Below, piece by piece: positions 6,963-54,336 of a stretch of 64,000 nucleotides of DNA; position 1 is the first letter of the stretch, and each line of letters starts with the position of its first letter. The position numbers were made by a program, and so were the translations under genes. The notes under the pieces are model-generated. The model worked only from the letters and a program-made list of their open reading frames with translations. It made no database searches and was not told where the DNA came from. The stretch lies in the NCBI RefSeq assembly GCF_000411555.1, contig NZ_KE150487.1:124001-188000 (forward strand). The letters are read 5' to 3'. Source of the DNA: Atopobium sp. oral taxon 199 str. F0494 (GTDB taxonomy: Bacteria; Actinomycetota; Coriobacteriia; Coriobacteriales; Atopobiaceae).

Positions 6963-7042
6963 CGTTCGTTAAGACGCACGCTCATTAAAGTACACGTTTG
7001 TTAAAGCGCACGTTCGCTCAAGCACACGCTTGTCAAACTGCG
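6963..7042. repeat. Five tandem 16-bp degenerate repeats
   Basis: Five consecutive 16-bp units (6963, 6979, 6995, 7011, 7027) follow the pattern CGYTYGTTAAAGCRCA with substitutions but no indels. They lie between gldA and its terminator-like hairpin. Function unknown; the tract could be a slipped-strand array or a protein-binding site. Confidence 0.75.
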
Positions 7043-37453: not shown

Positions 37454-38740
37454 TTATGCCCCCAAAGTATCAATCGGAATAACATATATCCCATCCGAGC
37501 GCCGTCTACGCGCCATCGTCCCCTTACCGAGCAACACAGCCATAAAACTAGGCTTAGGATTTCTTGCTGCAGGATTAGCAGCCACCTTTCTCGCAACTCT
37601 TATGAGATTCGCAGCCGCATCTTCCACTTTAGATTCCCCCATCTTGATTTCAATGGCTGCCCATCGACCATCCATCAATTCAATAATGGCGTCAACCTCA
37701 AGCCCGTCGGCGTCCGCATAATATCGTAAAGATCCCCCATACGATTTAGGCAAAGCAGAAACGTAAACGGACAAATCATGAATGCAGAGTGACTCAATCA
37801 ATAAACCAAAAAGCTGTCCGTCTTTAAGTAAGCGTGAAGAGTCGACACCTAATAAACTGGCCACGAGAGACGTATCACAGAAATATCGTTTTGGTTTCGT
37901 GCGCAGCCTTGACTTTGACCTGATTGGCGCATCCCAGCCCGAGAGCTCCTCAATAAAATAGTTGCACCTAAACTCTTCAAGGTATGAGGATATGGTCCCA
38001 TCCACCGGAGCTATATTGTCAAAGGCAGCAATATCATCTCTCACGGTGCCCAGCGTTGCACTCGTTGCTACATTTCGTGCAAGAGATGCAGCTATGCGGC
38101 GGGACAGAAGTGGACTTTTTCCCGCGCGAGGCATGCTTACATCAAAAAGTGCATTAAGATACTCGTCGGCAACGGCCCTTGGATCCGTCAATTTTTTTGT
38201 TTGAAGAGCCGGCCACCCACCGCGGCATACAATATTGGCTAAATCGGCAAGATCAATATGAGATTGTGCCGGCTGGAAGGAATCTTCAAAGAGTCCCAAA
38301 AGGGATACTGCTCCCGTAGAATCTCCAGTCTCTGCAAGACTCATAGTATGCATACGCAACCGTGCAATGCGTCCTGCTCCACTATGTCTTTTTTCATCCT
38401 CGGGAGAAGTAGAGGAGCCTGTCAAAATAAACTGGCCCGGCTTATTTGCACTATCATCAATTCTGTGACGTACAATATTCCATATAGCAGGTATATCTTG
38501 CCATTCGTCAATAACATGAGGGGTATCACCAACAAGAGCAAGTTGTGGATCATCCATATAGATCTGTTCGGATTCATCCACACGTGTCACACTCTCGCCA
38601 AATGACTGTGCCGTCCAGGATTTCCCCGACCAGCGAGGACCACAAAGTTCTATACCACCAAAGGTATCCAGAAGGACCTGCACCTGTGAATCGATAATAC
38701 GAGGAATGTACGTTTTCGGCTTAAACTTTGAATATCTCAT
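37454..38740 (-). CDS. AAA ATPase with DUF4143 domain (1)
   Basis: 428 aa. N-terminal AAA domain: Walker A LCGPRWSGKSW (about 32-42), Walker B-like HVIDEWQDIP (about 75) and sensor FILTGSSTS (about 104). The C-terminal DUF4143 region carries a nuclease-like core (GLEVDAIIELMDGRWAAIEIK, where the spaced D...E.K pattern resembles PD-(D/E)xK). These common ATPases have no settled function. A four-unit repeat array lies 57-147 nt upstream of its start. Monocistronic. Confidence 0.85.
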   Translation of the reverse strand: MRYSKFKPKTYIPRIIDSQVQVLLDTFGGIELCGPRWSGKSWTAQSFGESVTRVDESEQIYMDDPQLALVGDTPHVIDEWQDIPAIWNIVRHRIDDSANKPGQFILTGSSTSPEDEKRHSGAGRIARLRMHTMSLAETGDSTGAVSLLGLFEDSFQPAQSHIDLADLANIVCRGGWPALQTKKLTDPRAVADEYLNALFDVSMPRAGKSPLLSRRIAASLARNVATSATLGTVRDDIAAFDNIAPVDGTISSYLEEFRCNYFIEELSGWDAPIRSKSRLRTKPKRYFCDTSLVASLLGVDSSRLLKDGQLFGLLIESLCIHDLSVYVSALPKSYGGSLRYYADADGLEVDAIIELMDGRWAAIEIKMGESKVEDAAANLIRVARKVAANPAARNPKPSFMAVLLGKGTMARRRRSDGIYVIPIDTLGA

Positions 38741-38796
38741 AAGACCCCCTCGTAAGAACTATTGTAATGCCTGATGATAGCATAAATTCAACTCTT

Positions 38797-38887
38797 CATT
38801 GATGATTTTCGAGGGATTCCATTTATGATTTTCGAGCAAACTCAACTATGTTTTTCGAGCCATTACATTGATGATTTTCGAGGGATT
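38797..38887. repeat. Four TGATTTTCGAG boxes at exact 23-bp spacing
   Basis: TGATTTTCGAG at 38803, 38826 and 38872 and TGTTTTTCGAG at 38849: start-to-start distances are 23, 23 and 23. The outer copies share the longer context CATTGATGATTTTCGAGG. The array sits upstream of the DUF4143 ATPase start (38740) and downstream of the AraC gene stop (38903). The regular two-turn spacing suggests cooperative protein binding on one face of the helix. Confidence 0.85.
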
Positions 38888-38902: not shown

Positions 38903-39874
38903 TCACTGAACGCTATTGCTTTTTCTAAAGTCCACCGGCGAGAAGCCCTTGTTTCTTCGAAATGCTTCCGTAAACGCACCTGGTTTGCGGTAACCGACCG
39001 CCTTACCGATGCTTGCGATCGGAAGATCGGTTTCCTTGAGCAGCCGAACAGCCTCTTCCATTCGTTCCCGTATGACATAAGCAGAAGGTGAAAGCCCCGT
39101 CGCTGTTTTGAACAGTCTTTTCAGCTTGGTTTGCCCGATGTACAGCTCTGAGGCAAGCCGTGCACAGGAGAGGTCTCCACTCAGGTTGTCGGCAATGTAG
39201 GCACTGATATGGCGGATAGCGCGTGTATCATCCTGAGACAGAGCCTTATGTTCTTCGCTTCCATCTTCTCGGGTAGCGTATTCCATAACAAGAGCGACAG
39301 CCTCTGCAATCACGCCCTCATAGAACAGCTCCGCGGCAATTCCCTTGCCCTGATACGCACGTGCCTTGCGGAGCAGATCGACAAGTTCGGGAAGATCATG
39401 TTTTCCGTCAACTTTGATAAAGGCTTCCCGGACATCTCTGATGTCCCCAAACCTGCTTTGTAGATAATCCCGATAGTAGTCGGGAGAAATAGTGATAGAC
39501 GAAGCCCTTGCTACGGCCCCTTTTGAGAATCGCATCTCATATTCTTCATTCTCACCCCCAAGATATACCATGATGGCCCCCGGAGCGAGCGGCGCACCCT
39601 GACGTTGCACCATACCCTTGACATCATCGTAGCATCCCAGGCAGATGTGCTCGGTACAGCGGTACCGCATGATCCCGCTTTTTGCAAAGTTCATCCTGAA
39701 TGCATTCACGGCAAAAAGATTTCCGCGAAAGTACGCCCAGTACTCACCGGATCCCAGCTCATTTTCAAAGGTGTGTAGGACGCCTTCAGGGCCATAACCA
39801 CGAACTTCCTTCAAAAGCTTGAGATCCCATCCTTGAAACGCCCCACGGTAAAGATCTGTCTCAATACTTTTCAT
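38903..39874 (-). CDS. AraC-family regulator (YbtA-like)
   Basis: 323 aa. An N-terminal ligand-binding region of about 200 residues precedes a C-terminal AraC double helix-turn-helix (about 225-320), with LASELYIGQTKLKRLFK and GYRKPGAFTEAFRRNKGFSP. The tail resembles regulators of siderophore loci such as YbtA/PchR. GGAGGGAAG precedes the ATG. It is divergent from the ECF/ABC operon starting at 40079, which it probably controls through the palindromic region between them. Confidence 0.86.
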   Translation of the reverse strand: MKSIETDLYRGAFQGWDLKLLKEVRGYGPEGVLHTFENELGSGEYWAYFRGNLFAVNAFRMNFAKSGIMRYRCTEHICLGCYDDVKGMVQRQGAPLAPGAIMVYLGGENEEYEMRFSKGAVARASSITISPDYYRDYLQSRFGDIRDVREAFIKVDGKHDLPELVDLLRKARAYQGKGIAAELFYEGVIAEAVALVMEYATREDGSEEHKALSQDDTRAIRHISAYIADNLSGDLSCARLASELYIGQTKLKRLFKTATGLSPSAYVIRERMEEAVRLLKETDLPIASIGKAVGYRKPGAFTEAFRRNKGFSPVDFRKSNSVQ

Positions 39875-53031: not shown

Positions 53032-54336
53032 TTAAACCCACTGTTCATATTGGGCAATTGCCCACAGCGGTATATTGACCAACCAACCGTCATCTCGGTA
53101 TGAAGACAAAGAAGTTCGAATTGCATGAGATAAGTCAAATTTCTCAACCGCAATTTTTAAACTCTTTGATTGAAGGTTTTCCCCAGCTTTAACCTCAATG
53201 GGATACGGTTGACTCTTATACTCCACAGCAAAATCAGTTTCAGCTCTTCCAGATTCAGAAGACCAATATACAGGGGCTTTATTTTGACTCAATAACGATT
53301 GAGCAACATATTGCTCAGTTATAGCTCCTTTGAATTCTGTAAATAGACGCATTGAATCTGAAAGTATAATCGCAGGATCCAGATTAGAAAGAGCTCCCAA
53401 AAGACCAACATCAAGACAGAAAATCTTAAATGCTTGCGCATCCTCATAGCTCGCAAACGGAAATCTTAATGCGGCAACACGAGAAACTTTATAGAGTATC
53501 CCGTAATCAATCAGCCATTGAATGCTTTCCTCAAAGTCTCTTGCCCGTCCACCCTTTCGGACAACCCCATAAATGAATTTTTTATTTTCTTTCGCCAATT
53601 GACTTGGCAGTGAATGCCAAACGAGTCTCATACGTTCTTGAATTCTTGCTGGCGCATATTTTCCAAAATCACTTTCATAATCATTGATGATTTGCGACTG
53701 AATACGTCTACATGCCGAAAGATTTTGATGTAAAACATACGAATTAACCACTCCCGGCATTCCGCCAACAATCAAGTATTCTTTAAGCTTTGCTTGAAGA
53801 ATATCCTCTACAGCCTTAAGGTTACTTTTATTCGCCTGAAGAAGTTCATCTGCCAGCGGATCACCTGAAGTTGCGCGAACAAACTCAACAAAACTCATTG
53901 GATAGAGTATGAGCTGGTCAACCTTTCCTACAGGAAATGACACTCCTTCTCCGCGCATAGAGATGCCCATATAAGATCCTGCAGCAATAATATGATACTC
54001 GCTGGCTTGCTCGCAAAAATACTTAAGTGAGACAAGACCTTGTGGAGCTTCCTGAATCTCATCAAAAAGTATTAATGTATTAGACGGATCAATAACATTG
54101 CCAGTACGCAGCTCGATCTGTCGAACTATTTTGTGTGGATCCAAATCTTGTTCAAATAAAGAGCAGGCTGATGGCTCCATTAAAAAGTCGATACGAACAA
54201 CGTTTTTATATTCTTTCCTAGCAAACTCATTCATTAACCAAGTCTTACCAGTTTGTCTGGCACCTTTCAGAATAAGTGGCTTTCTTTCTATACTATTTTT
54301 CCACGCAATGAGGTCTTCCATAAGAGATCTATACAT
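53032..54336 (-). CDS. AAA ATPase with DUF4143 domain (2)
   Basis: 434 aa. Walker A LKGARQTGKTW (about 25), Walker B LILFDEIQEAP (about 83), sensor IIAAGSYMG (about 115). The C-terminal DUF4143 part has the nuclease-like pattern (AETDFAVEYKSQPYPIEVKAG near 385-405, quoted in its core DFAVEYK and PIEVKAG). ATG 54336 is preceded by AGAGG at 8 nt. Extending to 54498 would translate an upstream DNA repeat into a repeated peptide, which argues for the shorter form. AT-rich like its neighbour. Confidence 0.85.
   Translation of the reverse strand: MYRSLMEDLIAWKNSIERKPLILKGARQTGKTWLMNEFARKEYKNVVRIDFLMEPSACSLFEQDLDPHKIVRQIELRTGNVIDPSNTLILFDEIQEAPQGLVSLKYFCEQASEYHIIAAGSYMGISMRGEGVSFPVGKVDQLILYPMSFVEFVRATSGDPLADELLQANKSNLKAVEDILQAKLKEYLIVGGMPGVVNSYVLHQNLSACRRIQSQIINDYESDFGKYAPARIQERMRLVWHSLPSQLAKENKKFIYGVVRKGGRARDFEESIQWLIDYGILYKVSRVAALRFPFASYEDAQAFKIFCLDVGLLGALSNLDPAIILSDSMRLFTEFKGAITEQYVAQSLLSQNKAPVYWSSESGRAETDFAVEYKSQPYPIEVKAGENLQSKSLKIAVEKFDLSHAIRTSLSSYRDDGWLVNIPLWAIAQYEQWV

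Follow-up and report, generated by a model that had tools for sequence, protein, structure and literature searches.

Plasmid initiators recognise iterons, direct repeats that lie about two helical turns apart beside the gene of the binding protein, and MalT boxes are direct-repeat operators to which the regulator binds cooperatively. An array of direct repeats was found in a 64,000-nucleotide (nt) stretch of the genome of Atopobium sp. oral taxon 199 str. F0494 (contig NZ_KE150487.1, positions 124,001 to 188,000), here called the window, where four boxes precede a gene for a DUF4143 ATPase. Among regulators, cooperative binding to direct-repeat operators has also been described for the SARP-LAL group, with heptamers and 4-nt spacers, and with 22-nt boxes (PMC5930380, in the part of its text that is accessible). 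The ATPase resembles PDC-S01, an ATPase fused to PD-(D/E)XK, which the accessible part of PMC12988326 places fourth by frequency among the defences of prokaryotes (29,494 in bacteria and 9,986 in archaea); according to the same text, experimental validation is pending for most PDC candidates. The array described here is a real, conserved and gene-specific cis element of one branch of this very common candidate defence family.

The array occupies positions 38797–38887 on the minus strand, between the end of an AraC gene (38903–39874, minus) and the start of the ATPase gene (37454–38740, minus). The original prediction of four boxes at exact 23-bp intervals is upheld. Direct repeats of TGATTTTCGAG start at 38803, 38826, 38849 and 38872 with an exact step of 23 bp, approximately 2.2 helical turns, though only three of the four are exact copies, the third (38849–38859, TGTTTTTCGAG) carrying one mismatch. 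Read on the gene strand (minus), the distal box 1 (38872–38882), box 3 (38826–38836) and the gene-proximal box 4 (38803–38813) are exact matches to CTCGAAAATCA, and box 2 (38849–38859) is CTCGAAAAACA. The further claim that the sequence between boxes is variable was right in part, the repeated element on the gene strand being approximately CTCGAAAAnCATnaaTG and therefore longer than the 11-bp box.

Tandem Repeats Finder reported positions 38797–38887 with a period of 23, 4.0 copies and a score of 96, the highest of 22 rows for the window. A strict chain of 18–29-bp steps occurred in one of 152 window tiles of 420 nt each, namely at the array itself, and no inverted repeats were found there. 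Single boxes are not enriched (30 sites at two or fewer mismatches versus 24.7 expected). Over the whole genome, four of the six exact sites of the 12-mer CTCGAAAAWCAT fall inside the array, and with one mismatch there are 24 sites versus 30 for a reversed control pattern. The near-matches are thus at control level and the array is unique in its genome; a regulon with the same boxes was not found elsewhere in it. The four-box, 23-bp array is confirmed as real.

The check put forward with the original prediction was a search for family-specific spaced boxes before homologues of the ATPase, and these are present across several phyla, with the same 23-bp pitch and gene-specific boxes. A two-box pattern run against public genomes returned five loci, two of which are Coriobacteria with an array directly before a DUF4143 ATPase. 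Another of the five (L005), within a phage-like gene, has the look of a duplication by chance and was rejected. The strict detector required at least three 9-mers at a single lag of 18–29, with 8/9 or more positions shared between each and the one before it. An order-wide protein search of 247 genomes gave matches in 178, from which 133 homologous genes were taken, 132 of them with enough upstream DNA. Dropped from the analysed rows were L098 and L132 because of their short frames, L153 for want of a start, L198 for its shortness, L032, and the second and third matches in L023, which were unusable. Strict arrays lie upstream of 93 of the 132 homologues, 86 at lag 23 and seven at lag 22, and these counts were unchanged when lags of 10–59 were allowed. 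The same detector found arrays in none of 264 in-gene segments and none of 396 dinucleotide shuffles of the homologous upstream regions, which rules out chance and simple tandem duplication, and in one of 32 downstream segments. Many of the 39 order homologues lacking a strict array show degenerate arrays by eye, as at L049, where the boxes alternate between TTCGGAAAATC and TTCGGATTTTC. With a relaxed finder, restricted to steps of 22–24 and using a 1% shuffle threshold from one shuffle per gene, 163 of 179 pooled genes passed; the 485 steps comprised 430 of 23 bp, 45 of 22 and 10 of 24.

Outside the order, strict 23-bp arrays with different boxes (e.g. CCAAATnACCGAA) precede 25 of 30 Prevotellaceae homologues, and phylum-level loci have strict arrays in seven of 23 cases, one (L158) at lag 24. 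Plasmid copies with strict arrays occur in Collinsella aerofaciens, Bacteroides ovatus, B. uniformis and Lentilactobacillus hilgardii, and those with relaxed arrays in Mycobacterium riyadhense and Prosthecochloris aestuarii. The Prosthecochloris box, GGCGAAACGGTAGCGTA, is similar to that of an actinobacterial relative (L161) with 61% protein identity. Arrays independent of ATPase genes, which the original prediction had named as evidence against it, are rare: in 817 kb of fetched DNA, selected for holding ATPase genes, 133 distinct strict chains stand at ATPase starts and 16 elsewhere. The array is a hallmark of one branch of the DUF4143 ATPases (AAA+, winged-helix and PD-(D/E)XK nuclease domains; PDC-S01 in PADLOC).

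An extension to DUF4143 ATPases in general fails, since other subfamilies, including five further DUF4143 genes of the same genome (L006-L009 and L011), have no array. Further Bacteroidota loci (n=26) gave 15 passes and 11 failures with the relaxed finder and 11 strict arrays, eight of these at lag 23. For none of the 11 array-less Bacteroidota loci is the profile E-value stronger than 2.6e-54, and among the 15 with arrays L269 (1.8e-37) is the sole exception that also falls in this weaker range. Plasmid or phage loci numbered 21, of which 12 passed the relaxed finder and nine did not; among the nine from Pseudomonadota or Campylobacterota only L273 passes, and that marginally. Rhizobial, Moraxella and Aliarcobacter relatives are mostly without arrays. 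As Neorhizobium and Aliarcobacter members score higher on the PDC-S01 profile yet lack arrays, the array marks a sub-branch.

Several side observations concern this boundary. The window itself encodes a DUF4143 ATPase of a different subfamily (53182–53676, minus), without an upstream array, and its second-best repeat is an imperfect 32-bp tandem repeat (6963–7037, score 80). Inverted repeats, for instance CCTTGCA...TGCAAGG-like or TTCATGACATGAA-like ones, were often seen by eye near the start of the array-less distant homologues L228, L257, L266, L267, L275 and L276, as if sister branches used palindromic operators instead. The Deltaproteobacterial metagenome-assembled genome NP119 has CTCGAAAATCAAAAA-like units arrayed at 21 bp between genes (L004:6540-6710), and no related ATPase was found in that genome or in five genomes of its class. 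At a Prevotellaceae contig end (L003:1929-2010), a 21-bp array of GCGTCTCGAAAATCACAA was found in a genome with no ATPase profile match; the contig stops at the array. Both of these arrays look related to those before the ATPases. Lastly, L016:4038-4145, L194:1177-1257 and L196:3713-3790 contain 21–23-bp arrays with quite different boxes, away from detected ATPase starts.

The pitch is constant while the sequence of the box varies from gene to gene. Between genomes, box similarity climbs with ATPase identity, from 0.22 at 20–30% to 0.76 above 80%. For 64 same-genome paralogue pairs it is 0.275, versus 0.287 in identity-matched pairs; since paralogues sharing a genome are no more alike in box than matched pairs, a host-wide regulator is unlikely, and whatever recognises the box is most probably specific to the gene rather than to the host. 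The boxes of the cluster neighbours L124, L023 and L112 differ. Three family members form a tandem cluster at L212 (G167:C41:70000-84000), each with a different box, and in close relatives within Collinsella (L208, L234-L243) the ATPase and its array are present, absent, or represented by remnants only.

The 428-residue product of the window gene exceeds the Pfam gathering scores for AAA_14 (41.6 bits versus 27) and DUF4143 (90 bits versus 28.1), and is matched over residues 10–388 by the PADLOC profile PDLC04790 (PDC-S01; E 4e-52). No significant sequence match to it was found in the PDB (best E 0.95). Its AlphaFold2 model, with a mean predicted local distance difference test (pLDDT) score of 93.4, consists of an NTPase domain (residues ~6–205; 38126–38725), a winged helix-turn-helix (wHTH; residues ~206–290; 37871–38125), for which an alignment with archaeal and STAND ATPases is further evidence, and a PD-(D/E)XK-like nuclease domain with strands (residues ~336–428; 37457–37735), all encoded on the minus strand. 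The helices of the wHTH span residues 210–222, 230–238 and 247–259, the last being the predicted recognition helix (37964–38002, minus) with T249 and Y253. Across 179 genes the Walker residues are near-invariant, with K40 of Walker A in 179 and D78 and E79 of Walker B in 178 each. Likewise D350 and E364 are conserved in all 179 and K366 in 176, and from this D...ExK active site the domain would be a member of the PD-(D/E)XK nucleases. The closest folds are the archaeal ATPases 2qen (Z 14.9, 247 residues) and 2fna (Z 13.2), followed by the STAND/NB-ARC oligomers RPP1 (Z 12.8) and CED-4 (Z 12.3); Foldseek matches also include Orc1/Cdc6 and RuvB. The order of NTPase core and then winged helix is that of the STAND and archaeal ATPases, although a shared fold shows no function.

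Recognition of the box by the ATPase's own helix is supported statistically. Over 10,008 pairs, with overall identity removed, T249 and Y253 rank first and second of the 428 positions covarying with the box. When box similarity was regressed on domain identities, the wHTH had a standardised coefficient of 0.46, and no other domain exceeded 0.05. To allow for the tree that the pairs have in common, a null was built by evolving artificial boxes along the protein tree; at the matched rate, the observed r for the helix window was 0.334, whereas the highest of 150 simulated values was 0.284, and for Coriobacteria alone it was 0.359 versus a null maximum of 0.342. At a slower rate, p for the helix was 0.007. 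Since the array abuts the N-terminal coding end, linkage alone would be expected to favour the NTPase domain and not the wHTH.

The arrays stand at the promoter of the gene. In the window, a -10-like hexamer, TATCAT (38774–38779, minus; a consensus match only), lies 39 nt before the ATG and 34 nt downstream of the start of box 4, and no recognisable -35 hexamer was found (best 2/6). Among 28 Prevotellaceae, TAnnTTTG follows the last box in 25 (0.9 expected by shuffling); among 122 Coriobacteria, a -10-like hexamer does so in 57, where 20 would be expected. In 41 of 53 genes the last box begins at most 33 nt before the -10, the distances between box and -10 spread from 8 to 65 nt, and helical phasing of these distances is not significant (p 0.09). 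Repression is slightly preferred over activation, since the distance to the promoter varies and the box often overlaps it; such variation would be easier to reconcile with a repressor than with an activator whose geometry is fixed.

We consider it fairly probable that the ATPase binds the array at its own promoter cooperatively and autoregulates, the array thereby being the cognate operator of the adjacent gene. The interpretation offered by the original prediction is supported overall, and of the two binding factors that it had named, the ATPase or a partner, the former is favoured, though not proved, by the covariation between the box and the recognition helix of the ATPase. Several ATPase molecules would line up along the array, with one molecule to every 23-bp unit, and each would read approximately 17 bp through the winged helix between the NTPase and nuclease domains. 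Their assembly on the array would control the promoter of their own gene, perhaps by repression. Array and protein would travel and diverge jointly, giving each paralogue in a genome a private box.

A number of results weigh against this proposal. With a slower null rate in the tree simulation, p for any window was 0.047–0.053. In 67 phylogenetically disjoint pairs the partial correlation of the wHTH was 0.20 (p 0.10), and it was exceeded by that of residues 291–335 (0.25, p 0.04). The helix signal was not significant among the genes with T249/Y253 (120 of 163) or among 41 non-Coriobacteria, and some codivergence is inevitable from cis linkage. As to the promoter, -35 matches were at chance in the 53 genes, and likewise in a small control of 13 other genes. 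We read the helix covariation as real but carried by the Coriobacterial lineages in which positions 249 and 253 have changed.

It is unlikely, in our estimate, that the array is chiefly a platform for assembly or self-recognition, which holds or licenses a STAND-like NTPase-nuclease oligomer somewhat as iterons do with initiators, regulation being secondary and private boxes preventing interference between sister elements. The fold, nearest to archaeal ATPases and then to STAND/NB-ARC oligomers, is consistent with this, and both the almost complete retention of catalytic residues and the number of boxes (3–7) exceed the needs of an autoregulator and a simple operator, respectively. At L176 the same box (CCGGAACGAAATCGTCACAAA) recurs in a second array on the 3' side of the ATPase gene (L176:3086-3170), besides the 5' one. 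Above 50% identity, the boxes of paralogues tend to resemble each other less than those of matched pairs (0.31 versus 0.38, n=11, p 0.053), but over all 64 pairs box avoidance is not significant (p 0.18); moreover, the arrays stand at the gene's promoter and not in a neutral place, and no element with an array but without the gene was established. A related and equally doubtful proposal is that one branch uses its private, gene-linked array as a site of both assembly and control. Occupancy of the boxes would restrain the nuclease or count copies, foreign DNA which disturbs occupancy or carries a related array would trigger the nuclease, and box and recognition helix would co-diversify as a specificity system, like plasmid incompatibility groups.

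That a partner or neighbouring regulator binds the array instead of the ATPase also seems improbable. A small HTH gene lies directly upstream at some loci (Collinsella plasmids), the AraC gene is upstream in the window, and disjoint pairs show little covariation between the box and the ATPase helix. On the other hand, the upstream neighbours differ among the annotated plasmid loci (hypothetical genes, Y-family polymerase, Cas3, transposase, dehydrogenase), as seen without a systematic neighbour count; a shared host regulator cannot explain the differing boxes of same-genome paralogues, and the box does covary with the ATPase helix. We give very little weight to the repeats being a by-product of tandem duplication, the end of a mobile element, or a 5' untranslated region or RNA element. 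In some Collinsella relatives the segment that is present or absent ends, on its right side, a little beyond the array, so that array and gene come and go together. Yet the 23-bp pitch is kept across phyla while the sequence between boxes drifts, the window array is free of inverted repeats, and the promoter-like element, where found, is downstream of the last box, so that the boxes would lie outside the transcript.

With operator function for the adjacent ATPase as the preferred reading, each genome now supplies the likely cognate DNA for one PDC-S01 branch, so that function becomes testable at once, and the many paralogous pairs with private boxes are ready material from which to learn how protein and DNA recognise each other. 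Such arrays are unmentioned in the literature searched, including the accessible parts of PMC12988326, PMC13356809 and PMC5930380, nor was a statement of the DNA target or control of PDC-S01 found there; preprints and most subscription papers were outside its scope.

Compared with the systems described above, the window ATPase matches the PDC-S01 profile and has the same ATPase-PD-(D/E)XK fusion; it differs in its upstream array, which is confined to a sub-branch and goes unmentioned in the accessible text of PMC12988326. With the archaeal Walker ATPases PABY2304 and Sso1545 and the STAND/NB-ARC NTPases it shares the NTPase and winged-helix fold, to which the family here adds a nuclease domain at the C-terminus and, upstream of the gene, an array of apparently cognate sites. 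MalT and the SARP-LAL regulators activate target operons, whereas this array occurs once in its genome, before the ATPase gene itself. As with iterons, the window array consists of direct repeats about two turns apart beside the gene of the putative binder, but the protein is an AAA+/STAND-like ATPase-nuclease and not a Rep protein.
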